This document shows, piece after piece, positions 693 to 42,020 of a stretch of 47,511 bases of DNA. Both the position numbers and the translations under genes were made by a program. The first letter of the stretch is position 1, and every line of letters starts with the position of its first letter. Location of the stretch: NCBI GenBank assembly GCA_947470105.1, contig CANISR010000007.1, forward strand, positions 1 through 47,511. The letters run 5' to 3'. Under the pieces are notes generated by a model, which worked only from the letters and a program-made list of their open reading frames with translations, made no database searches and was not told the origin of the DNA. This stretch comes from Fidelibacterota bacterium (GTDB lineage: Bacteria > Pseudomonadota > Alphaproteobacteria > Rhodospirillales > Rhodospirillaceae).

Positions 693-2516
693 GTGACGGA
701 AGCGCGCATCGTTGCCGAACTCGGCATCAACCATGACGGATCGGCCGCGGTCGCCCGCGACCTGATCGATGCCGCGGCCGCGGCCGGTGTCTGGGGCGTC
801 AAATTTCAGTACCGCAACCTGGCGCGCGCCTATGCGTCCGACGCCCGTGAACTCGGCGACGAGATGCTGCAGAAGGAAATCCGCCGCAACTATCTCTCGC
901 CGGAGACCATCCTCGATCTCGCAGCCCATGCCGCCAAAGCCGGCGTAAAGCCCGGCATCAGCTTCTTCATCCCCGAGGATATCGACGACTTCGCCGGCGA
1001 CATCGCCCGGTTCGATTTCTTCAAGATCCCCTCGGTGGAATTCACCAACCTGCCGCTCATTACGCGGATTCAAAATCTCGGCAAGTGGGGCCTGATCTCC
1101 ACCGGCGCCTATACCGAAGCCGCGATCCGCGACACCATCGCCCATCTTGATCGCGCCGCCTGGGTGCCGCTGCATTGCATTTCCAACTACCCGGTGGCGG
1201 TGGCCAACCCGAAGCTCGGCTATATCGCCCATTTACGCGGGCTGTGGGGCGGCCCGGTGGGCTATTCCAGCCACGACGAATACTGGGAAACCTGCCTCCT
1301 GGCCCTGCACCTCGGCGCCACGGTGATCGAGCGGCACATTACCTTCGACAAGGCAGCGAACGGTCTGGACCATTCCTCCAGTTCCACTCCGGATGAGTTC
1401 GCGAAACTGGTGCAGTTTGCGCAAGATATGGACATCATTGTCGCCGGTAGCGGCCCCCGCAATCCGAACCAGGGTGAATTGCTCAACCTGCAGAATCTCG
1501 GCCGTTCGTTCTATGCCGCGCGCGATATCGCGGCGGGCGAGCCGGTCGACGCCGACAAGCTTGTCCTGCGCGCGCCGCGCACAGGTCTCGGCCGCGAGGA
1601 GGCTGCGGTGCTCCTCGGCAAGCCTGCCGTGCAGGAGGTGAAGGCCGGTGCGGTCATCGATCGGGCGGTGTTCGCTAAAACGCCCGCACTTTCGTCCGCG
1701 GCGCTGGATTTTGCCCGGACCAAGAAGCTCTCGCTGCCGGTGCGGTTTCATGACCTCGCCAAGATGGAGGCCCTGGCCCCCCTTGGACGTTACGAATTCC
1801 ACCTGTCATTCGGCGACGTCGCCGGGACTATCGACCTCGCGCCCATCAATGCACGCAACCAGTACAGCGTCCACCTGCCGGACTACGTGAGTCCTACTCA
1901 GCTTATGGACCCCTTCTCTCCGGCGGCGGACCACCGCGCCGAGAGCCTTAAAGTCCTTGACCGCACCTCCGACTTCACCAAAGCCCTGCAGGACCGCACC
2001 GGTGCGGAAACCGTCATCGTCGGCAGTTTCTCCGTGGTCCACGACGGGCTCGATGACTTCTTCCGCCGCTACGCCGATCTGTTCGGGACTTACCGCGCGC
2101 GCGGCGTCACCATCCTGCCGCAGTGGCTGCCGCCGGTGGCTTGGTACTTCGGCGGCGCGGTGCGGTTGCACGCCATGAACAATCTGGCGGATATTGAGGC
2201 CATCAAACGTCACCAACTGCCGATCTGCATGGACATCTGCCACCTGTGCATGGGCGATAAGGTCTTCGATTTCGACGCCGCCGCGGTGGTAAAGGATCTC
2301 GCCCCGCTGACGCGCCATGTCCATATTGCCGATGCCTTGGGATTTGATGGCGAAGGCGTCGCCTTCGGCGAAGGCGACCCGGAGAACCGCGCCGCCATCG
2401 CGGCTGCCTTGGCGTTCGATTGCGTGAAGGTCGTGGAGGTTTGGCAAGGCCACCTCCATGGCGGCGCCGGCTTCATCCAGGCCCTGACCGCGCTGGAGGC
2501 GCAGTTTAATGGCTAA
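693..2516 (+). CDS. NeuB-family nonulosonate synthase fused to a xylose-isomerase-like TIM barrel
   Basis: This 607-residue protein starts at GTG 693 after AGAGGA (683-688). Residues 1-240 are a NeuB/SpsE synthase domain (ELGINHDG at 9-16, VKFQ, HCISNYP at 161-167). H194 and H215 are spaced like the two metal ligands of Neisseria NeuB. E116 follows the KIPS motif, where the family has an acidic residue. Residues 268-330 resemble the SAF (antifreeze-like) domain. Residues 345-607 form a sugar isomerase/epimerase-type barrel with likely metal ligands D514, H517, H544 and E582. NeuB enzymes condense phosphoenolpyruvate with an N-acyl hexosamine to form sialic, legionaminic or pseudaminic acid. 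The added barrel could prepare the sugar substrate, but that is inference. The stop overlaps the next gene by 8 bases. Confidence 0.85.
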   Translation: MTEARIVAELGINHDGSAAVARDLIDAAAAAGVWGVKFQYRNLARAYASDARELGDEMLQKEIRRNYLSPETILDLAAHAAKAGVKPGISFFIPEDIDDFAGDIARFDFFKIPSVEFTNLPLITRIQNLGKWGLISTGAYTEAAIRDTIAHLDRAAWVPLHCISNYPVAVANPKLGYIAHLRGLWGGPVGYSSHDEYWETCLLALHLGATVIERHITFDKAANGLDHSSSSTPDEFAKLVQFAQDMDIIVAGSGPRNPNQGELLNLQNLGRSFYAARDIAAGEPVDADKLVLRAPRTGLGREEAAVLLGKPAVQEVKAGAVIDRAVFAKTPALSSAALDFARTKKLSLPVRFHDLAKMEALAPLGRYEFHLSFGDVAGTIDLAPINARNQYSVHLPDYVSPTQLMDPFSPAADHRAESLKVLDRTSDFTKALQDRTGAETVIVGSFSVVHDGLDDFFRRYADLFGTYRARGVTILPQWLPPVAWYFGGAVRLHAMNNLADIEAIKRHQLPICMDICHLCMGDKVFDFDAAAVVKDLAPLTRHVHIADALGFDGEGVAFGEGDPENRAAIAAALAFDCVKVVEVWQGHLHGGAGFIQALTALEAQFNG

Positions 2517-3555
2517 TGCCGGCAAGACCGCTTTCATCTTCGGCGTCACGGGTCAGGATGGCGCCCTGGTCGCCGCCGAACTGCTGCGCCAGGGTTGGAC
2601 CGTCCACGGCGGCTCGCGCCGGGGTCATGTGAGCAAGCTCTGGCGGCTGGAAGAACTCGGCATCCTCGACAAGGTCAACCTCGTCAACGTCAACCTGCTC
2701 GAACCGTTTCAGATCGTCGAAGCCCTCACCAGCCTGCGGCCCGATCACATCTATCATTTCGCCGCCGAGAGTTTCGTCGCGGATTCCTTTCATCAACCCC
2801 ACTCCGTCATCGCGACCAATGTGGTGGGTACACTCAATGTGCTCGAAACCATGCGGATTGCAGCACCCGGCGCGAAGCTGTTCTTCGCATCCAGCGCCGA
2901 GGTCTTCGGCGTGCCGCCTGCGACAGGATTTCTCGACGAAACCAGCGCACTCCAGCCCATCAATCCTTACGGCGTGTCCAAGCTCGCCGCGCAAAACCTG
3001 GTGAAGGTCTACCGCGAGCGTTACGGCATCCACGCCGCGTCCGGAATCATGTTCAATCACGAGAGCCCCCTGCGCGCACGCAACTTCGTGACACGCAAGA
3101 TCAGCTACAACCTCGCGCGGCTAAAGCTTGCGGGCGGCCCGCCTATGAGCCTAGGCGCCCTCGACGCCGCGCGCGACTGGGGCGCGGCCGCGGACTATGC
3201 CCGCGCCATTCCTCTGACGCTGAACCTCGACGCCGCCGAGGACTTCGTCTTCGCCACCGGCCGCAAAACATCGGTGAAGCAATTCTTCGAGTATGCAGCC
3301 ACCGCCGCCGGATATGATCCCGTGTTCGAAGGCCACGGCGTGGCGGAAACCTGCCGTGACCGCAAAACCGGCCAGGCCTTGGCCGCGGTATCGGAGAAAT
3401 ATTTCCGCCCCTTCGACACTCAACCCCTGGTCGGCAACCCTGCCAGACTCAAAGAGCGGACGGGCTTCGCCGGATCACGCGACGCAGCCGCCGTGGCCGA
3501 GGAGATGGTGGCGGCCGACTTGAAACGCAGAAAGGACGGAGCGATCCATGTTTGA
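2509..3555 (+). CDS. GDP-mannose 4,6-dehydratase-like NAD(P)-dependent nucleotide-sugar dehydratase
   Basis: A 348-residue extended short-chain dehydrogenase. The cofactor loop is GVTGQDG (12-18). The catalytic region has SSAE (128-131) and Y154-x3-K158. FNHESP (182-187) and the later ALDAARDWG are hallmarks of GDP-mannose 4,6-dehydratases, so the substrate is probably a GDP-linked hexose. LegB of the Campylobacter legionaminate pathway catalyses the comparable GDP-GlcNAc 4,6-dehydration, so a GDP-N-acetylhexosamine is an attractive alternative to GDP-mannose. It overlaps the genes on both sides by 8 bases, implying translational coupling. No matching aminotransferase or 4-reductase lies in this operon. 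Confidence 0.82.
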   Translation: MANAGKTAFIFGVTGQDGALVAAELLRQGWTVHGGSRRGHVSKLWRLEELGILDKVNLVNVNLLEPFQIVEALTSLRPDHIYHFAAESFVADSFHQPHSVIATNVVGTLNVLETMRIAAPGAKLFFASSAEVFGVPPATGFLDETSALQPINPYGVSKLAAQNLVKVYRERYGIHAASGIMFNHESPLRARNFVTRKISYNLARLKLAGGPPMSLGALDAARDWGAAADYARAIPLTLNLDAAEDFVFATGRKTSVKQFFEYAATAAGYDPVFEGHGVAETCRDRKTGQALAAVSEKYFRPFDTQPLVGNPARLKERTGFAGSRDAAAVAEEMVAADLKRRKDGAIHV

Positions 3556-4495
3556 CGATGTGAAGGAACGGCTGCAGGGCTGCGTCTACACCATTTTTAC
3601 GCCCTTCGATGCCGACGAGAAGGTGGATTACGCCGCCCTCGACCGCTACCTCGAGCACATGTACCGCACCGGCGCCCGCAAGTTCTACGCCATGGCGTAC
3701 AACTCGCGCTATTCGCAGCTCACCCACCCGGAAATCCTGGAACTGAACGCCTTCTGCATCCGCAAGGTTAAGCAGCTCGATCCCGACAACATCGCCATTG
3801 TCGGCGACCCGATTCATTGCTCTACAAAAGAGACCATCGAATTTTCCCGTCACGCCAAGGATCACGGCGCCGACCTGGTGTCCCTGCTGGTACGCGAGAA
3901 GTATTTCAGCGACGACCAGATCATCGATCACTACGCCGATGTGGGCCGCGCCGCGCGTATCGGCATTTTGGTGCACGAAATGCCGTTTCTGTCGGGCATG
4001 AACGGCCTGCAGATGCATTGGCCGGCGTCCTTGTTCCTCGCCCTGCCCAAGGTGCCGGAGATCGTGGCGCTCAAGGAAGACGCCAAGGACTTCGAGATCA
4101 CAAAACTGACCCTGACTCTGGAGCCGCGGATCCGGGTGGTGATCGCCGGCCGCAAGTCGGTTTTCATGGACTACCGCCCCTACGGCGCACGCGCCTACCT
4201 CAACGGCATCTCCATGCTCGACGCCCGTATCGGCGAAGCGTTTTGGGCGGCTTATGAAAGAGACGACAAGGCCAGGATCCAGTTCATCCTGGACAAGCTG
4301 GAGGCGCCGTTCTTCGACCGCTGCTGCGCCAAATACGGCTGGCACCGCACCAACAAAGCCCTGCTTCAAGCCGCGGGTTTCATGCATCGCCGCGACCGCA
4401 TGCCGATGCCGCATTTGAGCGACGCGGACTATGCGCTGGTCGAGGATGTCCACCGCGAAGTCGCCGCCGCCGCGGCCACGCTGTTCGCATCATGA
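3548..4495 (+). CDS. DapA/NanA-family aldolase-like protein with altered active-site motifs
   Basis: A 315-residue TIM barrel of the dihydrodipicolinate synthase/N-acetylneuraminate lyase family. The Schiff-base lysine is probably K176 in VALKEDAK. The family GTTGE loop is replaced by AYNSRYSQLT (50-59). The usual catalytic tyrosine of the YNxP segment appears as H143 in LVHEMPF. Known relatives join or cleave pyruvate and an aldehyde or sugar. The changes suggest a different carbonyl substrate or a non-aldolase role. The gene overlaps both neighbours (8 and 4 bases), so it probably acts in the same sugar pathway as the NeuB fusion. A plain sialate lyase would be odd inside a biosynthetic operon. 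Confidence 0.78.
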   Translation: MFDDVKERLQGCVYTIFTPFDADEKVDYAALDRYLEHMYRTGARKFYAMAYNSRYSQLTHPEILELNAFCIRKVKQLDPDNIAIVGDPIHCSTKETIEFSRHAKDHGADLVSLLVREKYFSDDQIIDHYADVGRAARIGILVHEMPFLSGMNGLQMHWPASLFLALPKVPEIVALKEDAKDFEITKLTLTLEPRIRVVIAGRKSVFMDYRPYGARAYLNGISMLDARIGEAFWAAYERDDKARIQFILDKLEAPFFDRCCAKYGWHRTNKALLQAAGFMHRRDRMPMPHLSDADYALVEDVHREVAAAAATLFAS

Positions 4496-5199
4496 GCATT
4501 ACCGCCTTCATCCCTGCCCGCTCCGGCTCCAAGCGGGTTCCCGGCAAGAACATCAAGCCACTCGCAGGAAAGCCGCTGGTGCTGTGGTCCCTCGATGCCT
4601 GTGTGCGGGCGCCAAGCGTCAGCCGCGTGATCTTTTCGACGGACTCCGAGCAATACTGGGACTTGGCCCGGCGTCATCTGGGGGAAGAAAAACTGACCTT
4701 GGATTTCCGCTCACCTGACGAAGCCGGCGACAAGGTCAAGATCTTCGATTATTTGCGCGGCGCCCACGGCAAGATTTTCTCAGGTAGCGACACCACCTTC
4801 CTGATGGGTCTGCCGACGGTACCTTTCCGCAGCACCAAGCATATCGAGGAAGCTATCTCCCTCCATCGCACCAGCCAAAAGCCGGTGTTCTCCGCCACCG
4901 AATACGGCTTTCCAGTTTCCTTTGCGTTCTACATGGAGAGCGACGGCACGTGGGCGCCGGTCGGCGCGGCCAACCCCATGGAAACCGGCAACACCCGCAG
5001 CCAGGACCAGCGCACCGCCTACCACCCCAATGGCGCGATCTACGTTCGCGCAGTGGCGGACCTCGCCAAGCCTGATCTCAAAACCCTCTATGACGGCGCC
5101 GTGGCCTATGTGATGGACAGGAACGCCTCGGTCGATATCGACAACGAAGCCGATTTTGCCATCGCCAGCGCCATGGTCGACGCCGGCCTCGTCGCATAG
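4492..5199 (+). CDS. Acylneuraminate cytidylyltransferase-like nucleotidyltransferase
   Basis: A 235-residue protein with the sugar nucleotidyltransferase signature IPARSGSKRVPGKNI (7-21). Further family segments are GLPTVPFRS, HPNGAIYV and the C-terminal VDIDNEADF. NeuA, PseF and LegF activate nonulosonic acids with CTP. PtmE-type enzymes of the same fold make GDP-sugars, and either role fits here. Because a GDP-mannose-dehydratase-like enzyme is two genes upstream, a GDP-sugar-forming role is a real alternative to CMP activation. Its ATG overlaps the previous stop by 4 bases, and 12 bases separate it from the next gene. I see no Shine-Dalgarno sequence in that gap. Confidence 0.82.
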   Translation: MSITAFIPARSGSKRVPGKNIKPLAGKPLVLWSLDACVRAPSVSRVIFSTDSEQYWDLARRHLGEEKLTLDFRSPDEAGDKVKIFDYLRGAHGKIFSGSDTTFLMGLPTVPFRSTKHIEEAISLHRTSQKPVFSATEYGFPVSFAFYMESDGTWAPVGAANPMETGNTRSQDQRTAYHPNGAIYVRAVADLAKPDLKTLYDGAVAYVMDRNASVDIDNEADFAIASAMVDAGLVA

Positions 5200-5211
5200 G
5201 CGCCGCATCGT

Positions 5212-6699
5212 ATGCAGGCCGAAGCCATCGCCATCATCAACGCCGTCGAGCAGGCCTGCGACACCACGGCGCTCACCTATCGCGGCGTTTGCTACTGGCC
5301 GCTGATCCGGCTGCGCCTATGGACAGCGCTGATGCAGCGGATGGTGATCGGCAAGAAGACGGGCGAAGGAGATACCGTCTCCAACGCAGGGCCAAGCTTC
5401 ACCACGGAGGCCGCCGCCGCGGCGGAGTTGATCGGTCCCCCGGCCCTCGGGCTGCTGCGCGGCGAAAATAGCGGCGCCGCCTTCGTGGCGAACCCTGACA
5501 TCGTGTTTTTCGCCAGGCCGGAGGAGCATTCCGACAGGACCCCCGCGGGGATGTTCGCCAAGATCCTCGACAGCGTGATCGAACGGGCCCCGGGTCCGTG
5601 GGCCAAGATCGAACTGGCCGATCCGCGCACCATCGGATTTCGGCGCGCAACCCCCAGTCAGTTTCTTGACCTGTCGCGGGCACAGGCCGGAGTTGCTTTC
5701 GATCCGCCTGGAACCCTCGTCGGCTTCCCTGACGTTGCCGCCGCGGTCAATCGCGCCGGCGACGTGTCCTTGGACCAGGGGCGCATGCTCACGGACATGG
5801 GGAAGATCTTCTATTTCGCACGCATCTTCGAAAAACTGCTGCGCACCCTTGGTCCCAAGGCATTCATACATTCGGTTTACTATCATCCGGTTGGCATGGC
5901 CTGGATGCTGGCCTGCCGATGGGCGGGCGTAACATCAGTCGATCTCCAGCACGGCCGCCTGGGCCCGCACCACGGGCTTTACACCGACCTTATCGCCGCA
6001 CCGCCGGACGGTTACGACCTCATGCCGGACCGCATCTGGTGCTGGGGGTCTAGGACCGCAGATGACATTGCGCGCCACAAGAACCTGCTGTGCCGGCGCC
6101 ATGGTGGTTTTTCCGGCGGCAATGCCTGGCTCTACAAATGGCGCTACGGCGACGCGTCGGCGTTCACGCCATCCGACGCAGAGGCATTCCGGGCGCGGCT
6201 CGAGGGCTCGCGGGTCATCCTTGTGAGCCTCCAGCCCCTGGACACCCCCGTGTCGCCGCCGCTGCTGGAGGCCATGAAGGCTGCACCGCCCGACTGGATC
6301 TGGCTGCTGCGTCTGCACCCGCTGCGCCGCCATACGGCGCCGGAGATCGCTGCGCTGCTGGCGCGCAACGGCGTCACGCGGTTCGAAATGGAAAACGCCA
6401 CCACATTCCCGCTGTTCACCTTGCTCCGCCTGGCGGACCATCATGTGACAGCGTTTTCCTCAGTGGTGGTGGAGGCCGCGGCCTTCGATCTGCGCACCAG
6501 CCTGACGGCGCCCGAGGGCGAGACCATCTTCGCGCCCGAGGTGGAGAACGACACGTGCCGCTATACACCCACGGGACCGGCATTGCTCGCGCATATCCAC
6601 GATGTATTATCCGGAGAACGCACGCCCGTGCGCAGCGATTTCATCGACATGACCGATGGCGTTGTCGATCGCGCCTTCAGCACAGTATTGAATTCATGA
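5212..6699 (+). CDS. Candidate GT-B glycosyltransferase of the capsule/sialyltransferase type
   Basis: A 495-residue protein without a clear family name by eye. Three features point to a surface-glycan transferase: DLQHG (244-248) followed by GPHHG; LLRLHP, with the His-Pro at 369-370; and TAFSSVVVEA, with Ser-Ser at 416-417. HP and SS motifs in this order are typical of bacterial sialyl- and polysialyltransferases and of related capsule transferases. No membrane segment or signal peptide is evident, consistent with a cytoplasmic or peripheral enzyme. Its position between the nucleotidyltransferase and the second NeuB suggests that it transfers the activated sugar made here. The stop overlaps the next start as ATGA. 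Confidence 0.55.
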   Translation: MQAEAIAIINAVEQACDTTALTYRGVCYWPLIRLRLWTALMQRMVIGKKTGEGDTVSNAGPSFTTEAAAAAELIGPPALGLLRGENSGAAFVANPDIVFFARPEEHSDRTPAGMFAKILDSVIERAPGPWAKIELADPRTIGFRRATPSQFLDLSRAQAGVAFDPPGTLVGFPDVAAAVNRAGDVSLDQGRMLTDMGKIFYFARIFEKLLRTLGPKAFIHSVYYHPVGMAWMLACRWAGVTSVDLQHGRLGPHHGLYTDLIAAPPDGYDLMPDRIWCWGSRTADDIARHKNLLCRRHGGFSGGNAWLYKWRYGDASAFTPSDAEAFRARLEGSRVILVSLQPLDTPVSPPLLEAMKAAPPDWIWLLRLHPLRRHTAPEIAALLARNGVTRFEMENATTFPLFTLLRLADHHVTAFSSVVVEAAAFDLRTSLTAPEGETIFAPEVENDTCRYTPTGPALLAHIHDVLSGERTPVRSDFIDMTDGVVDRAFSTVLNS

Positions 6700-7754
6700 A
6701 CGCCCCCCTCATCCACATCGGCGACCATGTCATCGGACCGGGGCGCCCGGCCTTCGTCATCGCTGAAGCGGGGGTCAATCACAACGGTTCGGTGGATATT
6801 GCCCTGAAGTTGATCGACGCGGCGCATAGCGCAAAAGTCGACTGCGTTAAATTCCAGACTTTCAAGGCGGAACGCGTAGCCTCAGCCAACGCACCCAAGG
6901 CGGCTTATCAGTTGGAGGTCACCGACCCGAATGAATCCCAGGTCGCCATGCTCAAGGACCTTGAGCTGGACCACAGCGCTTATCCGGGCCTGATGGCGGC
7001 CTGCCGCAAGGCAGGCCTGACCTTCATGTCCACGCCCTACAACGAAGAGGACATCGCATTCCTGGTGAAGCTGGGCGTGCCTGCCCTCAAGCTGTCATCC
7101 ATTCACGCGCCAGAACCGTCCACCTTGCGCGCGGCTGCCGCCCCAGGCCTGCCGGTGATCCTGTCCACGGGCATGTGCACCATGGACGAGGTCAAGCGCG
7201 CGGTGGAAGTGTTCCATGGCGCGGGCAACCGCAAACTCATTCTACTTCAGTGCACGTCCAACTATCCGTCCGCCACAGCCGACGCCAACTTGCGCGCCAT
7301 GAACACCATGGGTGAGCAGTTGGGCGTGATGATGGGCTATTCCGACCACACCCAGAGCGACACAGCCTGTATCGCCGCCATTGCGCTGGGGGCGCGCGTG
7401 ATCGAGAAACACTTCACCCTCGATAAGACCATGAAGGGCCCGGACCAGCCCACCTCCCTGGAACCGGCGGAGATGGCGCGCCTGATGGTCTGTATTCGCG
7501 AAGCGGAAGCCGCACTCGGCACCGGCGTTAAGGCGCCCCCGCCGAGCGAGGCTCGCAATATTCCGGGCGTGCGGCGCGGGATTGTCGCCCGCCGCGCGAT
7601 CAAGCAGGGGGCGCGTATCACCGCCGAAGACCTCATCCTCAAACGGCCATTGTCGGAAATTGCGCCCTCGGCTTGGGATCAGGTCGTGGGGGCCGCCGCT
7701 GCCCGTGACGTCGCCGAGGGAGCCGCACTGGTGTGGGCCGACATCGCCGTATGA
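6696..7754 (+). CDS. neuB: N-acetylneuraminate synthase family protein (second NeuB of the operon)
   Basis: The ATG at 6696 overlaps the previous stop (ATGA) and gives a family-sized 352-residue protein. The open frame runs further upstream, but that part lies inside the preceding gene. Motifs are IAEAGVNHNG (22-31), VKFQTF, QCTSNYP, GYSDHT and IEKHFTLD. Ligands H218 and H239 have the NeuB spacing. A C-terminal SAF domain covers about 289-350 (GVRRGIVARR). Family members condense phosphoenolpyruvate with ManNAc or a 6-deoxy-diamino hexose. One oddity: after the KLSS motif at 132-135 the usual acidic residue is H137. The sugar made is unknown, so the symbol denotes the family only. Confidence 0.86.
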   Translation: MNAPLIHIGDHVIGPGRPAFVIAEAGVNHNGSVDIALKLIDAAHSAKVDCVKFQTFKAERVASANAPKAAYQLEVTDPNESQVAMLKDLELDHSAYPGLMAACRKAGLTFMSTPYNEEDIAFLVKLGVPALKLSSIHAPEPSTLRAAAAPGLPVILSTGMCTMDEVKRAVEVFHGAGNRKLILLQCTSNYPSATADANLRAMNTMGEQLGVMMGYSDHTQSDTACIAAIALGARVIEKHFTLDKTMKGPDQPTSLEPAEMARLMVCIREAEAALGTGVKAPPPSEARNIPGVRRGIVARRAIKQGARITAEDLILKRPLSEIAPSAWDQVVGAAAARDVAEGAALVWADIAV

Positions 7755-7859
7755 GGCTTTGCGGCTCGAAACCCGGCTCCATTAAGGCATTTTTGACGGG
7801 TCATTAAGTAGTGTGCGGTGCCCGACTCCGCCAGCACCATGCACCTTGAGGAACCGACA

Positions 7860-8807
7860 ATGCCGGACACTGCTCCAGAGACCTTGCCGGTCCTGAACTG
7901 GCTTGAAGGCCGTCACGATGTGTATTCGCGTGAGGGCGCGGCGGATTTGCAGAGTTCGATCCACCGTGGCCTGATGAATACCTTCAAGGATGAAGCCGGC
8001 GCTGCGGCGTTCCTCGCCTCCGACCGCTCCCACTGGCGCCAGCAGGCGATCATCAAATCCCAATTCGTCATGGGCAAGACGTTCGCTGGTTCCATCCTCG
8101 AAATCGGCGCCGGCACCGGCTGGTGCTCCAGTCTTCTGTCCACCCTCGCCCAGGTCGACCGGGTGTACTGCTCGGACTACGATCGCACCGCGGTGGAAAC
8201 CCTGATGCCGCAGGTGCAAAAAGTGCTGCACGCGGTGCCCGGTAAAATCCAGCGGGTGTATGGATCGTTCAACAGCATCCCGATGGAAAATGAAGTTGAT
8301 ACGGTGGTTTCCATCGGCGCACTTCATCACTCGGAGAACCTGTATGTAACGCTGTCCGAGTGCTTCAAGGCGCTGAAGCCGGGTGGATGGCTGGTCGCGA
8401 GCGAACCCACCTATCCCGACACCGAGACCAACAAGCAGATCGCAGCGCGCTACAAAAAGGAAGATCCGGCGTCCGTCAAGAAGTACGGCAAGGTCACGCG
8501 CCACGAAGACAACTCGGACCACTACTACCGCCTCAGCGAGTTCATCGCCGCCGCGCACAGTGCGAAGTTTGATGTGTTTCCCTTCATCTTTGATCTCACT
8601 GGCAGCCGTCATGCGGACGACCGCACCTTGTCGGAACGCAAGACGGCGACCGGCTTCCTCGCGAACGTGCTCTATCCCTACTTCGCGAAGAACCCCGTCA
8701 ACCCCATGTTCGATACATTGCTTCTCGTATTGCAGAAGCCGGTGAACGGAGGGGACGATCTCCACCATGTGTTGTCCGGCGCCGGTCGCAGCTGGAAAAG
8801 CGTATGA
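7860..8807 (+). CDS. Class I SAM-dependent methyltransferase
   Basis: ATG 7860 is chosen because GAGGA (7848-7852) lies 7 bases upstream; an in-frame GTG at 7818 is less likely. The 315-residue protein has motif I LEIGAGTGWCS, an acidic SDYD after the second strand, and VSIGALHHSENL followed by LKPGGWL, as in small-molecule methyltransferases. No tailored substrate domain is visible. It follows the second NeuB after 105 bases and overlaps the GSCFA gene by 4. A role in O- or N-methylating the surface sugar or its glycan is inferred from position only. Confidence 0.82.
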   Translation: MPDTAPETLPVLNWLEGRHDVYSREGAADLQSSIHRGLMNTFKDEAGAAAFLASDRSHWRQQAIIKSQFVMGKTFAGSILEIGAGTGWCSSLLSTLAQVDRVYCSDYDRTAVETLMPQVQKVLHAVPGKIQRVYGSFNSIPMENEVDTVVSIGALHHSENLYVTLSECFKALKPGGWLVASEPTYPDTETNKQIAARYKKEDPASVKKYGKVTRHEDNSDHYYRLSEFIAAAHSAKFDVFPFIFDLTGSRHADDRTLSERKTATGFLANVLYPYFAKNPVNPMFDTLLLVLQKPVNGGDDLHHVLSGAGRSWKSV

Positions 8808-9877
8808 CGAGTCCGCCCATCGCGCGGACGATGGGGGGCTACGCCGCGGTCAGGACAGCGGCCGCCAACCCCAATAGCCGCTTTGCTTATGCCAAGGATG
8901 ATCCCACGTCCGCCGGCTGGCGCCTCGCGCAGACCGCTCCGGTAAAGGTCCGGACAGCGCCCAAGTTCCGGTTGTCGACCGAAGACACCATTTTTACCAT
9001 GGGGTCATGCTTCGCCCGCAATGTGGAAGAGAGCCTCATCCGCCTCGGCATTCGGGTGTCGCTCGCTGATTTCGATTTTCCGGTGGAATACTTCCATCCC
9101 AATTACGGCCGGCTGGACACATGGATCGGCACGCCGATGCACGGCAACATGATTCGTTCGGTCTTGAATAAATACACGCCGCTGTCGATGGCGATTGAAT
9201 TCGAGCGACTGCTGCGCCCTGAGGTCTTCCCGGATCGGGCGAAGGGCCTCATCCAGGTTGACGAATACCGCTGGTTCGACCCTTACATCAAGAACACACG
9301 CATGATGGGCTGGGAAGATTGCCTGAATGCGCGGCGACTTGTTAATTCGGCCTCATCCAAGGTGCGGGAGGCAACGGCGGTATTCGTGACTTTGGGCTAC
9401 ACCGAGACGTGGCTGGATTCCGAAACCGGGCATGTCTTGAATGTCGGGCCGCCGCCGCTTCTTATTAAGAAATGGCCGGACCGATTCCGCTTTTATAACG
9501 CCACTCACGCCGACGTTCTCGCGTCTTTGGAGCAAATTCACGACCTGATCACCACTCACATCCGCGCTGATATGAAGTTCGTGGTGACAGTATCCCCGGT
9601 ACCCCTGGGGACCACGTTCACCGCTATGGATGTCATCAGCGCCAACGCCTACTCAAAGGCTACGCTGCGGTCCGCGGTGGGCGAGTTCTGCGCCGGCCGG
9701 GATAACGTCGACTACTTCCCAAGTTATGAAATGGTGACGTCCACCAATCCGGCGATCGCCTGGGAAGAGGACCGGATCCATGTGACGGTTCCGCTGGTCG
9801 ACACCGTCATCGGGCATTTCGTCGACACCTATTTCGGCGAAACCCCTGTTGCGAAGGCGGCGGGTTCCGCGTCATAA
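8804..9877 (+). CDS. GSCFA domain protein (first copy)
   Basis: A 357-residue protein carrying the diagnostic TMGSCFARN segment near residue 65, then FVTLGYTETW and VVTVSPVPL, blocks typical of the GSCFA family. The family is related to SGNH/GDSL hydrolases, with the GSC serine in the position of the GDS nucleophile. No biochemical role is well established. A sugar O-acyl esterase or acyltransferase would fit the fold and the location. No signal peptide is seen, so it is probably cytoplasmic. The start overlaps the methyltransferase stop (ATGA). A second GSCFA gene lies at 42095-43045. Confidence 0.84.
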   Translation: MTSPPIARTMGGYAAVRTAAANPNSRFAYAKDDPTSAGWRLAQTAPVKVRTAPKFRLSTEDTIFTMGSCFARNVEESLIRLGIRVSLADFDFPVEYFHPNYGRLDTWIGTPMHGNMIRSVLNKYTPLSMAIEFERLLRPEVFPDRAKGLIQVDEYRWFDPYIKNTRMMGWEDCLNARRLVNSASSKVREATAVFVTLGYTETWLDSETGHVLNVGPPPLLIKKWPDRFRFYNATHADVLASLEQIHDLITTHIRADMKFVVTVSPVPLGTTFTAMDVISANAYSKATLRSAVGEFCAGRDNVDYFPSYEMVTSTNPAIAWEEDRIHVTVPLVDTVIGHFVDTYFGETPVAKAAGSAS

Positions 9878-9911: not shown

Positions 9912-10967
9912 ATGCGTCTCCTCGTCACCGGCGGCTACGGCTTCATCGGCTCCGCTTATATCCGTCACGTCATGAAAACCCCGGGCGTCGAGGTCCTCAA
10001 CGTCGACAAGCTCACCTATGCCGCCAACCCAAAAGCGATCGAGGCCGCCGCGGATGTGGCCGGCTACAGCTTTGTCCAGGCCGACATCACCGATCGCGCC
10101 GCCATGCGTACGCAGCTCCTGGCCTTCCGGCCCGACGCGGTGGTGAACTTCGCCGCCGAGACACATGTGGACCGCTCCATCGACGGGCCGTCGCTGTTCG
10201 TGCACACCAACGTCGTGGGCACCGCGATCCTGCTCGAGGAAACCACCGCCTACTGGAAGACCCTGGACGATGCCGGCAAGGCGCGGTTCCGCTTCCACCA
10301 CATCTCCACCGACGAGGTTTTCGGCACCCTCGGCGCGGATGGGCTTTTCACCGAGGCCACGCCGTACCAGCCCAACTCGCCCTATTCGGCGAGCAAGGCC
10401 GCCGCCGACCATCTGGTGCGCGCCTGGAACCACACCTATGGGCTTCCGGTACTGGTGACCAACTGCTCGAACAACTACGGCCCCTGGCAATTCCCCGAGA
10501 AGCTGATCCCGGTAATGATCATCAAGGCCCTCCTCGGCGAGCCGCTGCCGGTCTACGGCAAGGGCGAGAACGTGCGCGACTGGCTGCATGTGGACGACCA
10601 CGCTGAAGCCTTGTGGCTGGTCTTGCGTAAAGGAACCGTGGGCGAGAGCTACAACGTCGGCGGCAATTCGGAGCGCAAGAATCTCGACGTCGTGCATACC
10701 ATCTGCGACCTGGTCGATCAGGCCGCGGGCGTGGATGCGGCCGGTCCGCGCCGGCGCCTGGTGAACTATGTCACCGACCGCCCCGGACATGACTTCCGCT
10801 ACGCCATCGACGCGTCCAAGATCGCGGCGACCTTGGGCTGGCGGCCCAAACAGACCTTCGAACAGGGTCTGGCGGCGACGGTGGCCTGGTACCTCGCCAA
10901 CCGCCCGTGGTGGCAGGACATCCGCGACAAGGCCTACAGCCAACAGCGCTTAGGGCTTACGAAGTAG
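9912..10967 (+). CDS. rmlB: dTDP-glucose 4,6-dehydratase
   Basis: ATG 9912 begins MRLLVTGGYGFIGS, the normal RmlB N-terminus; 21 upstream in-frame codons are not family-like. The 351-residue protein has the cofactor loop at 6-14, STDEVFG with D134 and E135 as catalytic acid and base, and Y158-x3-K162. It converts dTDP-glucose to dTDP-4-keto-6-deoxyglucose, the entry to L-rhamnose and other deoxysugars. No rmlA, rmlC or rmlD is in the window, so the later steps are encoded elsewhere. The 3' end overlaps convergent maf by 11 bases. Confidence 0.92.
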   Translation: MRLLVTGGYGFIGSAYIRHVMKTPGVEVLNVDKLTYAANPKAIEAAADVAGYSFVQADITDRAAMRTQLLAFRPDAVVNFAAETHVDRSIDGPSLFVHTNVVGTAILLEETTAYWKTLDDAGKARFRFHHISTDEVFGTLGADGLFTEATPYQPNSPYSASKAAADHLVRAWNHTYGLPVLVTNCSNNYGPWQFPEKLIPVMIIKALLGEPLPVYGKGENVRDWLHVDDHAEALWLVLRKGTVGESYNVGGNSERKNLDVVHTICDLVDQAAGVDAAGPRRRLVNYVTDRPGHDFRYAIDASKIAATLGWRPKQTFEQGLAATVAWYLANRPWWQDIRDKAYSQQRLGLTK

Positions 10968-17935: not shown

Positions 17936-18032
17936 GATTTTTCCGGTGCGAGTGTGGCCTGACTCTACTGTGGAAAATTGAACTGTCGCAACCCGGCTTG
18001 ACTCTCTTCCCGTCTTGGCAGACCACACCCCT

Positions 18033-19082
18033 ATGAACCACACGGCTTCCCGCGCTTTGACCACGCCCGCGGCACTGGCTGACGCTGGCTTGCTCGCGGC
18101 TGACGACGTGCCGGGCCTCACGGCCGTTGCCGCGCGTTACGCCATCGGCGTGACGCCGGCCCTGGTGGAGTTGAGCCTGATGCACCCCGCCGTGGCGCGC
18201 CAGTTCGTGCCCAGCGACGCGGAGTTGTTGGTGCGCCCCGGCGAGCGCGCCGATCCCATCGGTGACGAGGCCTATGCGCCGGTGAAAGGCATCGTGCACC
18301 GCTATCCCGACCGCCTGCTGCTGATGCCGACCTTGAGCTGCGCGGTCTACTGCCGCTTCTGCTTCCGCCGCGAAACCGTGGGCGACGCCGGCGTGTTGTC
18401 ACCGGCCGAGATGGACGCCGCGCTTGCCTACATCGCCGCGACACCGGAGGTATGGGAGGTCATTCTCACCGGCGGCGATCCGTTGACCCTGTCGGCGAGG
18501 CGCCTCGGCAACATTCTCGCCGCGCTCGACGCCATTCCTCACGTCAAGGTCATCCGCATCCACACGCGCGTGCCGGTAGCAGCACCCGAACGCATAGATG
18601 CAGCGCTCATTGCAACACTCAGCGCATTGTCGAAGCCTGTCTACATGAGCATCCACTGCAATCACGCGGCGGAACTCACCGCCGCCATGCGCGCCGCCTG
18701 CGCACGATTGGCCGACGCCGGCATCCCGCTGCTCGCCCAGTCGGTGCTGTTGCACGGCGTGAACGACAACGTCGAGGCGCTGGAAGCACTTTTCCGCGGC
18801 CTGGTAGAGGCGCGTGTGCGGCCTTACTACCTGCACCAGCTCGACCTCGCGCCCGGCACCGGTCACTTCCGGGTGCCAGTGGAGGAAGGCCAGCGATTGG
18901 CGGCGGCGCTGCGCGGCCGGCTCTCGGGGATCGCGCTCCCGACCTACATTCTCGATATCCCCGGTGGCGCCGGCAAAGTGCCCATCGGCGCGGCGTTCCT
19001 ATCCCCGGAGGGGGATGGAAGTTTCCTCGTGCGCGATCCCCACGGGGACATCCACTCTTACCCGCCAACAGAAATCAGTTGA
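18033..19082 (+). CDS. Lysine 2,3-aminomutase family radical SAM enzyme (KamA/EpmB-like)
   Basis: From ATG 18033 the protein has 349 residues; an in-frame TTG at 18015 is possible. C103-x3-C107-x2-C110 is the radical SAM iron-sulfur motif. VILTGGDPL and the C-terminal DIPGGAGKVP, with the PLP-binding lysine, identify the lysine aminomutase family. The short length fits EpmB, which makes (R)-beta-lysine for modification of elongation factor P. No efp or epmA is in the window, so a free lysine 2,3-aminomutase role remains possible. It stands 31 bases before the sulfide:quinone oxidoreductase gene. Confidence 0.87.
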   Translation: MNHTASRALTTPAALADAGLLAADDVPGLTAVAARYAIGVTPALVELSLMHPAVARQFVPSDAELLVRPGERADPIGDEAYAPVKGIVHRYPDRLLLMPTLSCAVYCRFCFRRETVGDAGVLSPAEMDAALAYIAATPEVWEVILTGGDPLTLSARRLGNILAALDAIPHVKVIRIHTRVPVAAPERIDAALIATLSALSKPVYMSIHCNHAAELTAAMRAACARLADAGIPLLAQSVLLHGVNDNVEALEALFRGLVEARVRPYYLHQLDLAPGTGHFRVPVEEGQRLAAALRGRLSGIALPTYILDIPGGAGKVPIGAAFLSPEGDGSFLVRDPHGDIHSYPPTEIS

Positions 19083-40811: not shown

Positions 40812-42020
40812 ATGACCAATACCCCCGCGATGCTGCCCTACGGACGCCATGTCATCGACGACGAGGACGTCGCCGCTGTAGCCGCGGTCTTGAAGTCGAA
40901 CGCGCTGACGGGCGGCCCCGCCGTGGACCAGTTCGAGCGCGCCCTCGCCGAGGTCACGGGCGCCGCGGACGCCATTGCCTGCTCCTCAGGCACATCAGCG
41001 CTTCACCTCGCCGTTCTCGCCCTTGGCCTTGGACCGGGCGACCAGGTGATCGTGCCGAGCCTGACCTTCCTCGCCACCGCCAATTGTGCGCGCTATGTGG
41101 GCGCGGACGTCGTGTTTGCCGATGTCGATCCCGAAACGGGGCTCATGACGCCCGCGACCTTTGAACAGGCCGTGGCGCGCGCCGTACCGGGCCGCGTCAA
41201 GGCGGCGATCCCAGTGCATCTCAACGGCCAGGCCTGCGACATGCGCGGGCTCAAGCAGGTCGCCGACCGCCACGGCATCGCTTTAATCGAAGACGCCTGC
41301 CACGCCCTGGGGACGACGTATCCCGGCAACGACACCGTGCCGGTGGGCGCCGGCCGTGAAGCGGTGGCCACATGCTTCTCCTTCCACCCGGTCAAAACCG
41401 TCGCCATGGGCGAAGGCGGCGCCGTCACCACCAACGATCCCGTCCTGGCCGCCACCATGCGTCGGATGCGCGGCCATGGGATGGAGCGCAACGCCGCGGC
41501 TTCGACGGTGCCCGAGTTCGCCCTGGGGCCCGACGGCACACCGAACCCCTGGTTCTACGAAATGAACGAGGTCGGCTGGAACTACCGCGCCAGCGACATC
41601 CACTGTGCGCTCGGCTCCAGTCAGCTCAAGAAGCTCCCGGCGTTCCTGAACCGCCGCATCGAATTGGTGGCGCTGTATGACGCGGCGATGAAACCCCTGG
41701 CGCCGGTCGTGCGCACTCTGGGCCGGACCGGCGGCACCGTGGGCTGGCACCTCTATGTCGTATTGATCGATTTTGCCGGCATCGGCAGAGACCGCGGCGC
41801 GGTCATGCGGGCACTCGCCGCCGACGGCATCGGCACCCAGGTGCACTACTTCCCGGTGCACCTGCAGCCCTATTACCAGCGGCTCAATGGCCGCCAGTCG
41901 TTGCCGGGCGCCGAAACGTATTACAGCCGCTGCCTCAGCCTCCCCTTGTTCCCAGCTATGGCCGACAGCGACGTGACACGCGTCGTGGAGGCGCTGGCCC
42001 GCGCCACCCACCTGAATTGA
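40812..42020 (+). CDS. pseC: UDP-4-amino-4,6-dideoxy-N-acetyl-beta-L-altrosamine transaminase
   Basis: A 402-residue DegT/DnrJ/EryC1-family PLP aminotransferase with the PseC-type start LPYGRHVIDDEDVAAV. The PLP lysine is K195 in FSFHPVKTVAMGEGGA, and IEDACHALG binds the cofactor ring. PseC aminates the 4-keto product of PseB in the pseudaminic acid pathway. pseB is 4.3 kb downstream, which supports this assignment over other sugar aminotransferases. It could also serve the first sugar locus, which lacks an aminotransferase. Confidence 0.86.
   Translation: MTNTPAMLPYGRHVIDDEDVAAVAAVLKSNALTGGPAVDQFERALAEVTGAADAIACSSGTSALHLAVLALGLGPGDQVIVPSLTFLATANCARYVGADVVFADVDPETGLMTPATFEQAVARAVPGRVKAAIPVHLNGQACDMRGLKQVADRHGIALIEDACHALGTTYPGNDTVPVGAGREAVATCFSFHPVKTVAMGEGGAVTTNDPVLAATMRRMRGHGMERNAAASTVPEFALGPDGTPNPWFYEMNEVGWNYRASDIHCALGSSQLKKLPAFLNRRIELVALYDAAMKPLAPVVRTLGRTGGTVGWHLYVVLIDFAGIGRDRGAVMRALAADGIGTQVHYFPVHLQPYYQRLNGRQSLPGAETYYSRCLSLPLFPAMADSDVTRVVEALARATHLN

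Follow-up and report, generated by a model that had tools for sequence, protein, structure and literature searches.

A conserved alphaproteobacterial operon around a NeuB-isomerase-barrel fusion, predicted to make a deaminated nonulosonic acid

A stretch of 47,511 nucleotides (contig CANISR010000007.1; called the window below) carries at positions 693-9877 an operon built around a sialic acid synthase (NeuB) that is fused to a xylose-isomerase-type triosephosphate isomerase (TIM) barrel. It is a real and conserved nonulosonic-acid operon, and we give slightly better than an even chance to the reading, drawn from sequence comparison, that a surface polysaccharide is supplied by it with a cytidine monophosphate (CMP)-activated nonulosonic acid of the deaminated (Kdn) type, the less common kind, which bears no acetylamino group, or with a derivative of this acid; the most likely predicted product is a deaminated nonulosonic acid with a modification. 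The core of the system, a NeuB-isomerase fusion with a CMP-sugar synthetase (NeuA) and Kdn, already has a published parallel. New here are the conserved set of fusion, Gmd-like, DapA-like and NeuA-like genes (often with a PhyH gene), in which the DapA relative has a changed active site, and a strongly diverged subclade of the fusion. In the following, G-numbers denote genomes (G000 being that of the window), L-numbers denote loci, and DapL is the DapA/NanA-family protein.

The four core genes lie on the + strand and overlap by 8, 8 and 4 bases in the open reading frame (ORF) listing of the window. The first (693-2516; GTG start, 607 amino acids (aa)) encodes in one frame the NeuB domain (PF03102, 138.5 bits; cut-off 22.1), an antifreeze-like SAF domain (1503-1661; PF08666, 26.4 bits) and the PF01261-type TIM barrel (1725-2513; AP_endonuc_2, 44.7 bits; cut-off 31.1). 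It is followed by the genes for a Gmd-like 4,6-dehydratase (2509-3555, 348 aa; GDP_Man_Dehyd PF16363, 293.5 bits), DapL (3548-4495, 315 aa; DHDPS PF00701, 54.8 bits) and a CMP-nonulosonate synthetase-like protein of the NeuA/PseF family (4492-5199, 235 aa; CTP_transf_3 PF02348, 61 bits). The Pfam scores of these four proteins, and those of the second NeuB and the GSCFA protein encoded downstream (see below), all exceed the Pfam cut-offs. Coordinates, overlaps and domains agree with the preliminary description of this DNA, which had listed four overlapping genes of these families.

The fusion is not a frame artefact, because G011, G014 and G015, three genomes of the same genus, keep it as a single open frame (69-73% identity), and the full length recurs at 30-32% in G019 (32%) and on an Ensifer canadensis plasmid (30%). 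The search that found the genomic copies covered the proteins of 61 genomes (the own genome and 60 relatives), and in it the fusion of G026 was cut by a contig end. With a barrel profile, the fusion was found in 11 of 73 genomes of the family (own included; two partial, G026 at the contig end and G478 with two stops) and in eight of 385 genomes of the class sample (own included). A barrel scan of named genomes gave at least 549 confirmed relatives, the best 80 of which were analysed as named fusion loci; their titles include cyanobacteria, Actinomycetota, Chloroflexi/Anaerolineae, gamma- and alphaproteobacteria, bacilli and others, and the proposal that the architecture be looked for across genomes is thus answered by finds in many phyla. 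The fusion frame was called in 67 of the 80 loci, and 56 of these 67 proteins have 740-810 aa. Most named fusions exceed the length of the window protein by an N-terminal part, in which a Pfam CBS match was obtained in L052 and one just under the cut-off in L022; the window-type fusion and that of L096 have no such part. The fusion ORFs of L042, L072 and L081 are longer still (1008-1073 aa, against the usual 750). The barrel query from L052 had no match in phage records and matched one plasmid.

The residues of the NeuB part were mapped onto meningococcal NeuB via a HMMER alignment. According to the available part of the published study, Arg314 of that enzyme positions the N-acetyl group of N-acetylmannosamine (ManNAc), the R314A variant is inactive, and mannose is not accepted (PMC6795526). 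The corresponding position is Ala294 in the window fusion (bases 1572-1574), and among 85 fusion rows it is Ser in 74, Ala in six, Gly in three and Cys in two, with no Arg. These rows belong to a first set of 104 NeuB rows, of which the other 19 had been filed as non-fusion; Arg is present in 17 of the 19, and the two rows with another residue (L021, Thr; L088_9057, Ser) are truncated or split fusion members. Counted as distinct proteins, Arg is found in 0 of 78 fusion proteins and in 16 of 16 non-fusion proteins of this set. Among eight added non-fusion proteins, seven have Arg and one has Asp in a poorly aligned stretch (L165), giving 23 of 24 distinct non-fusion proteins overall. At the Asp214 position, Gly or Ser is found in all but one of the 85 fusion rows (84), and Asp in the 17 non-fusion rows with Arg. 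The metal and phosphoenolpyruvate residues (E25, K53, K129, S132, H215, E234 and H236 of the meningococcal enzyme) are each present in 84 of the 85 fusion rows, one row being gapped. From the loss of Arg314 and the role of this residue it follows, therefore, that the fusion NeuB should not need a 2-acetamido sugar, and the sequence evidence agrees with a Kdn-type substrate. As for the annotation models of NCBIfam, the fusion scores below the cut-offs of NeuB_NnaB (178.9 bits; cut-off 399.65) and PseI (129.9 bits; cut-off 340.25).

Another line of evidence comes from the capsule of Serratia marcescens; here we take COG1082 and PF01261 to denote the same barrels. The preliminary description had held that no standard gene set has such a fusion together with a DapA relative; that the fusion is missing from all known sets is not supported: in the available part of PMC9000132, the NeuB encoded beside NeuA in the KL1/KL2 capsule loci is described as carrying an additional sugar phosphate isomerase/epimerase domain (COG1082). 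Without neuB, the sialic acid signal falls 4-fold and no capsule is formed; the acid is mainly Kdn, about 20:1 over N-acetylneuraminic acid (Neu5Ac), and neither of the two is present once the capsule region has been deleted (PMC9000132, same part). Our residue-based reading that the substrate is not a 2-acetamido sugar was reached without the Serratia paper, and the two lines are therefore independent.

No hydrolysing 2-epimerase of the NeuC, LegG or PseG type was found in the window operon, as had been noted before, and PF02350 gave no match in G011, G014, G015 and G019 (completeness 99%, 84%, 96% and 99%, respectively), four of the seven genomes with the fusion in which it was sought; the control of this search was positive in 11 of 14 named genomes. 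G011, G014 and G015 have no PF03102 gene other than the fusion. PseG had no match in six of the seven genomes and matched only in the window genome. Among eight genomes searched, PF07221 (N-acetylglucosamine (GlcNAc) 2-epimerase) matched only in G286, and PF04131 (NanE) had no match over the cut-off and weak matches in G011 and G015. The PF02350 matches in G472 (with one stop inside) and G473 are located 0.3 and 1.0 kb, respectively, from a canonical NeuB with Arg314 and not by the fusion. In the window genome, a third NeuB lies near the PseG match (L017, G000:C71), and a NeuA-like gene has a PF02350 epimerase in its vicinity (L160, G000:C92), because of which further nonulosonic acids are probably made as well.

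The idea that the barrel may replace the epimerase step, put forward in the preliminary description, is a reasonable one given the four genomes in which PF02350 was not found. In one version, the barrel would be a new 2-epimerase in place of NeuC, turning for example free GlcNAc into ManNAc, and the product would be Neu5Ac- or legionaminate-like; these missing matches and the minor Neu5Ac of S. marcescens strains with the fusion NeuB would fit, but the loss in 78 of 78 distinct fusion proteins of the arginine needed for the N-acetyl group, and the predominance of Kdn in S. marcescens (PMC9000132, available part), make this explanation improbable. For the deaminated product that we prefer, the barrel probably supplies the aldose, because the residues point to a Kdn-type substrate and the fusion is the only NeuB, with no 2-epimerase found, in three relatives.

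The barrel belongs to PF01261 and is without a close solved relative. Its Gln477 is invariant in 46 of 46 aligned members, at a position where the MJ1311-type barrel has Glu; this Glu is presumably the first metal ligand of the family, the metal-ligand roles being assumed here. A non-catalytic or regulatory passenger would be consistent with the exchange of this residue; we regard it as a very improbable role, as many barrel positions, including the retained Asp514, His544 and Glu582, are invariant across the 46 sequences, and the barrel is fused to NeuB in one clade over many phyla. An AlphaFold model of the whole fusion (pLDDT, the predicted local distance difference test score, 82.7; pTM, the predicted template modelling score, 0.61) had NeuB 1xuu and PseI 8h2c as its best Foldseek matches; this search was uninformative on the second barrel, with NeuB and other TIM-barrel enzymes among the 50 matches listed. 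In the NeuB tree, a branch with support 100/99 has the fusion NeuBs on one side, and among them the window type forms a subclade whose branch is very long (4.43 changes per column); the bootstrap of this tree had not settled, and its long branches were flagged.

Several points weigh against a Kdn-type product of the window operon. The window subclade keeps Glu at the Glu134 position, which is Asp in 77 of the 85 fusion rows, and because of this residue and the very long branch it may use another substrate than its relatives do. Neither PF02350 nor PseG was matched in G019, although a canonical NeuB with Arg is present there, because of which the absence of known 2-epimerases is no proof; moreover, the genomes are drafts of 66-99% completeness, and G286 has 10% contamination. 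Gln in place of the ligand Glu could mean a weakened barrel. As for S. marcescens, its NeuB is likened to the window fusion by the domains described in the available part of the paper and not by sequence placement, the loss of Kdn was seen when the whole capsule region was deleted, and the neuB mutant was measured by a general sialic acid assay (PMC9000132). S. marcescens also makes some Neu5Ac, and the loss of Arg314 may not exclude N-acetyl substrates. Finally, among the 80 named loci, several of which are cut short, the Gmd-like gene directly follows the fusion in five, and DapL is present in one.

The order fusion-Gmd-DapL-NeuA-gtX (gtX being the putative transferase gene described below) is found in the window, in G014 (L019) and in G472 (L148, with the 5' end of the fusion cut), and, with contig breaks inside the Gmd-like gene, in G011 (L018/L152) and in G286 (L153/L159; gtX at only 25%), which belongs to another alphaproteobacterial family. 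The order fusion-Gmd-NeuA-DapL is found in G019 (L022), G473 (L149) and a Bacteroidia contig (L096). The four genes, often with PhyH, are thus seen together in two families of alphaproteobacteria and on a single contig of Bacteroidia, which bears out the earlier suggestion that they travel together. G015 has the fusion, the Gmd-like gene and a different NeuA (35%) without a DapL match.

The DapL scores of the family fall into groups: six genomes, the own among them, reach 390-561 bits and without exception have the fusion, and four (G001, G004, G008 and G470) reach 261-282 bits and have none, the next score being 98 bits. Among the 73 genomes, fusion and strong DapL occur together in six, the fusion only in five, DapL only in none and neither in 62 (Fisher test, p = 2.7e-6); with all ten DapL genomes the counts are 6, 5, 4 and 58 (p = 4e-4), both tests treating related genomes as independent. 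DapL (E up to 1e-35) was found in two of the 385 genomes of the class sample (the own genome and G286), both with the fusion, and the other six fusion genomes are without DapL. In G008 (L145) and G004 (L146), a DapL-NeuA-NeuBx cassette replaces fusion-Gmd-DapL-NeuA at a window-like locus with PhyH, gtX, NeuB2, methyltransferase, GSCFA and RmlB genes; this is a cassette swap inside one genus. DapL-NeuA-NeuBx is also present in L144 (G001) and in L147 (G470, another genus of the family). Because these loci have no fusion, DapL follows nonulosonic genes and not the fusion alone. A separate PF01261 barrel gene stands after NeuB2 in L145.

The neighbours of the named fusions were examined in 62 loci that have a frame of 600 aa or more on the + strand, taking at most two same-strand ORFs per side. 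A NeuA-family neighbour is present in 37 of the 62 loci. Pfam was scanned with 77 of 84 upstream and 67 of 71 downstream ORFs, and among the first 25 families listed, so that rarer ones can be missed, CTP_transf_3 occurs in 31 upstream and six downstream ORFs, GDP_Man_Dehyd in two upstream and six downstream ORFs, MptE-like (Maf-type) proteins in four downstream ORFs, and polysialyltransferase (PF07388) in two downstream ORFs. In Alkalimonas L055, a NeuA-fusion pair lies within 10 kb of genes for flagellin, FliD and a Maf glycosyltransferase. The surroundings of the fusion are a nonulosonic-acid context. A further observation is that L055, L068 and L088 (Alkalimonas and Arsukibacterium) all have NeuA and a long NeuB-barrel gene no more than about 10 kb away from genes for flagellin, FliD and Maf-type proteins (the families being tested on L055); flagellin glycosylation with a Kdn-type sugar is possible in these bacteria.

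The Gmd-like protein keeps the (S/T)-x-E motif (with Asp in L096) and has Y-x3-K in eight of eight alignment rows. It scores 246.7 bits against the NCBIfam gmd model, below the cut-off of 415, and its best solved relatives are Gmd enzymes (top, 2z1m at 271 bits). Because the dehydratase active site is kept and the best solved relatives are Gmd, guanosine diphosphate (GDP)-4-keto-6-deoxymannose is the likeliest product by prediction. In DapL, the alignments place the Schiff-base lysine at Lys176, His143 at the Tyr133 position and AYNSR at the GTTGE motif; the numbering of dihydrodipicolinate synthase (DHDPS) and the roles of Tyr133 and GTTGE are our assumptions. DapL scores far under the cut-offs of the NCBIfam models dapA, nanA and KdgD. 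Among the NCBIfam models, 5-dehydro-4-deoxyglucarate dehydratase comes closest (47.2 bits, far under the cut-off of 278), and the best solved relatives of the DapL profile are DHDPS enzymes. As the lysine is kept but Tyr133 and GTTGE are lost, DapL is probably a Schiff-base enzyme.

Two explanations of the pair were weighed about equally, and we hold each to be rather unlikely. One supposes two sugars: fusion and NeuA would give Kdn, and the Gmd-like enzyme and DapL another product, e.g., a 4-C-branched sugar formed when pyruvate, as an enamine on the DapL lysine, is added to C4 of GDP-4-keto-6-deoxymannose, an addition that the pyruvamide branch of shewanellose would presumably need. The kept Gmd residues, the kept lysine and the certain DHDPS family of DapL suit this scheme. 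So do the fusion-Gmd-NeuA locus of G015 without DapL, the majority of named fusion loci, which show neither gene, the occurrence of DapL with NeuA and another NeuB in G001, G004, G008 and G470, and a CBS-DegT sugar aminotransferase before DapL in L145 (Pfam), with a 70% identical protein in L144. However, near DapL in those four genomes NeuA and NeuB were matched but no Gmd-like protein was, because of which DapL goes with ulosonic-acid genes rather than with Gmd; moreover, the structure of shewanellose and this chemistry are themselves assumed. The other explanation has DapL act through a Schiff base on the finished 2-keto-3-deoxy acid (dehydration, C3/C4 epimerisation or lyase recycling) to give a deoxy or epimeric Kdn. 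For this speak the NeuA- and NeuB-family genes next to DapL at every examined locus that shows its surroundings, the dehydratase as best NCBIfam relative and the replacement of Tyr133 and GTTGE, while the similarity of DapL is weak to all sub-families and its solved relatives are DHDPS enzymes.

With the deaminated acid as the favoured product, we would order the pathway as follows. The barrel would isomerise or epimerise a neutral hexose to a mannose-like aldose for the fused NeuB, the NeuB-SAF part would form a 2-keto-3-deoxy C9 acid by condensing this aldose with phosphoenolpyruvate, the CMP sugar would come from the NeuA-like enzyme, and gtX or another transferase would use it. The Gmd-like enzyme, probably by way of GDP-4-keto-6-deoxymannose, and DapL would be a dedicated add-on that alters the acid or a sugar precursor, perhaps joined in this modification by PhyH and the methyltransferase. 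The substrate, the order of the steps and the roles of the barrel and of the Gmd-like and DapA-like enzymes are what we infer. The new acid of nine or more carbons proposed in the preliminary description survives in part: the base product is likely known Kdn or a derivative, and a new sugar is possible through the Gmd-like and DapA-like enzymes. More tentatively, and with somewhat less than an even chance, the product may be an undescribed deaminated C9 acid made without an N-acetylhexosamine by a synthase with a built-in isomerase and altered by DapL, as a new kind of Schiff-base enzyme, together with the Gmd-like enzyme, with Arg314 loss and barrel together marking a large Kdn-type clade. 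If so, Kdn-type synthases could be told from genomes by these two features, and a large clade of them, spread over many phyla, would now be called sialic acid synthases in databases. The Gmd-like and DapL add-on points to a further modification, of which no published description was found, and to an enzyme that works through a Schiff base and whose active site has changed.

As for the NeuA-like protein, its score against PseF (109.1 bits) is below the cut-off (205.7); PseF was best for all ten NeuA-like proteins tested, each below the cut-off, and the products were not separated by these scores. The idea of a 9-deoxy product, which rested on them, was dropped. Downstream, on the + strand, the order of a transferase candidate, a second NeuB, a methyltransferase and a GSCFA protein is as first described. 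gtX (5212-6699, 495 aa) is a putative GT-B type glycosyltransferase with the motifs QHG, RLHP and FSS, the meaning of which we presume. gtX itself had no Pfam, NCBIfam or PHROG match; two of eight family members match Glyco_transf_4 weakly (best 1.1e-4), and weak Glyphos_transf matches were also obtained. An AlphaFold model from two sequences (pLDDT 32.3) does not support a fold, and the gtX profile found nothing credible in the PDB (best E 0.22, ribosomal L4); gtX is probably a GT-B transferase, an assignment with weak support. At L022:7092-7808 (-), the start of an ORF (125 residues) matches gtX and its end resembles, by eye, the separate PF01261 barrel of L145, which looks like the scar of a deletion between gtX and barrel genes.

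NeuB2, the second, canonical NeuB (6699-7754, using the ATG at 6699 of the listed ORF 6090-7754; PF03102, 283.4 bits), keeps Arg314, has His at the Glu134 position and reaches 384 bits with NeuB_NnaB, just under the cut-off of 399.65. This His is shared by the NeuB2 proteins of the window, L144 and L145 (four of the 19 rows filed as non-fusion, two being the same window protein) and of L146. In the window, NeuB2 is followed by an S-adenosylmethionine-dependent methyltransferase (7818-8807; Pfam), with relatives at 61% in L022 and at 79-81% in L145/L146, and by the GSCFA-family protein (8804-9877; Pfam GSCFA, 152.2 bits). The next gene, RmlB for deoxythymidine diphosphate (dTDP)-glucose 4,6-dehydratase (9912-10967, listed from 9849, + strand; TIGR01181, 472.8 bits, over the cut-off), is probably for a separate sugar. 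Divergent from the operon and just upstream of the fusion is a PhyH-type 2-oxoglutarate dioxygenase gene (3-530, - strand), partial at the contig end and at 17.7 bits below the Pfam cut-off of 22; complete homologues in L022 and L096 exceed this cut-off. This gene is absent from the preliminary description. In L096 the PhyH homologue immediately precedes the fusion; in L022 and L149 it follows at a distance of about 4 kb, past DapL and a further NeuB. No promoter-like site was found, and terminator-like sites were at chance level. Elsewhere in the window, a lysine-2,3-aminomutase-like radical SAM protein (18015-19082) and a DegT aminotransferase (40812-42020) look ordinary.

Searched for NeuB-barrel fusions, for nonulosonic clusters with DapA relatives and for branched sugars, the open-licence literature yielded no report of the Gmd and DapL set, and the available part of PMC7371886 names no NeuB-barrel fusion. 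A link to bradyrhizose was considered and found no support in the parts of the literature at hand. Neu5Ac, legionaminic and pseudaminic acid are made by well-known gene sets, with which the operon shares NeuB- and NeuA-family enzymes; unlike them, it has no hydrolysing 2-epimerase, has lost Arg314 and has the barrel fusion and Gmd-like and DapA-like partners. DapL shares the PF00701 match and the Schiff-base lysine with DHDPS and N-acetylneuraminate lyase and differs in Tyr133 to His and GTTGE to AYNSR, and the Gmd-like protein shares active-site residues and best solved relatives with Gmd and differs by its score under the NCBIfam cut-off. The long NeuB-SAF-barrel proteins (about 750 aa, L034-L113) have the same domains and Arg314 loss, fall into one clade with the window fusion and in many cases adjoin NeuA; they differ in the extra N-terminal part, and most are without an adjacent Gmd-like or DapL gene. 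Closest in described layout are the KL1/KL2 loci of S. marcescens, which likewise combine NeuB and an isomerase-type domain in one protein, with a CMP synthetase gene beside it in a polysaccharide locus, whereas the Gmd-like, DapA-like and PhyH partners of the window fusion are not mentioned in the available part of that description.

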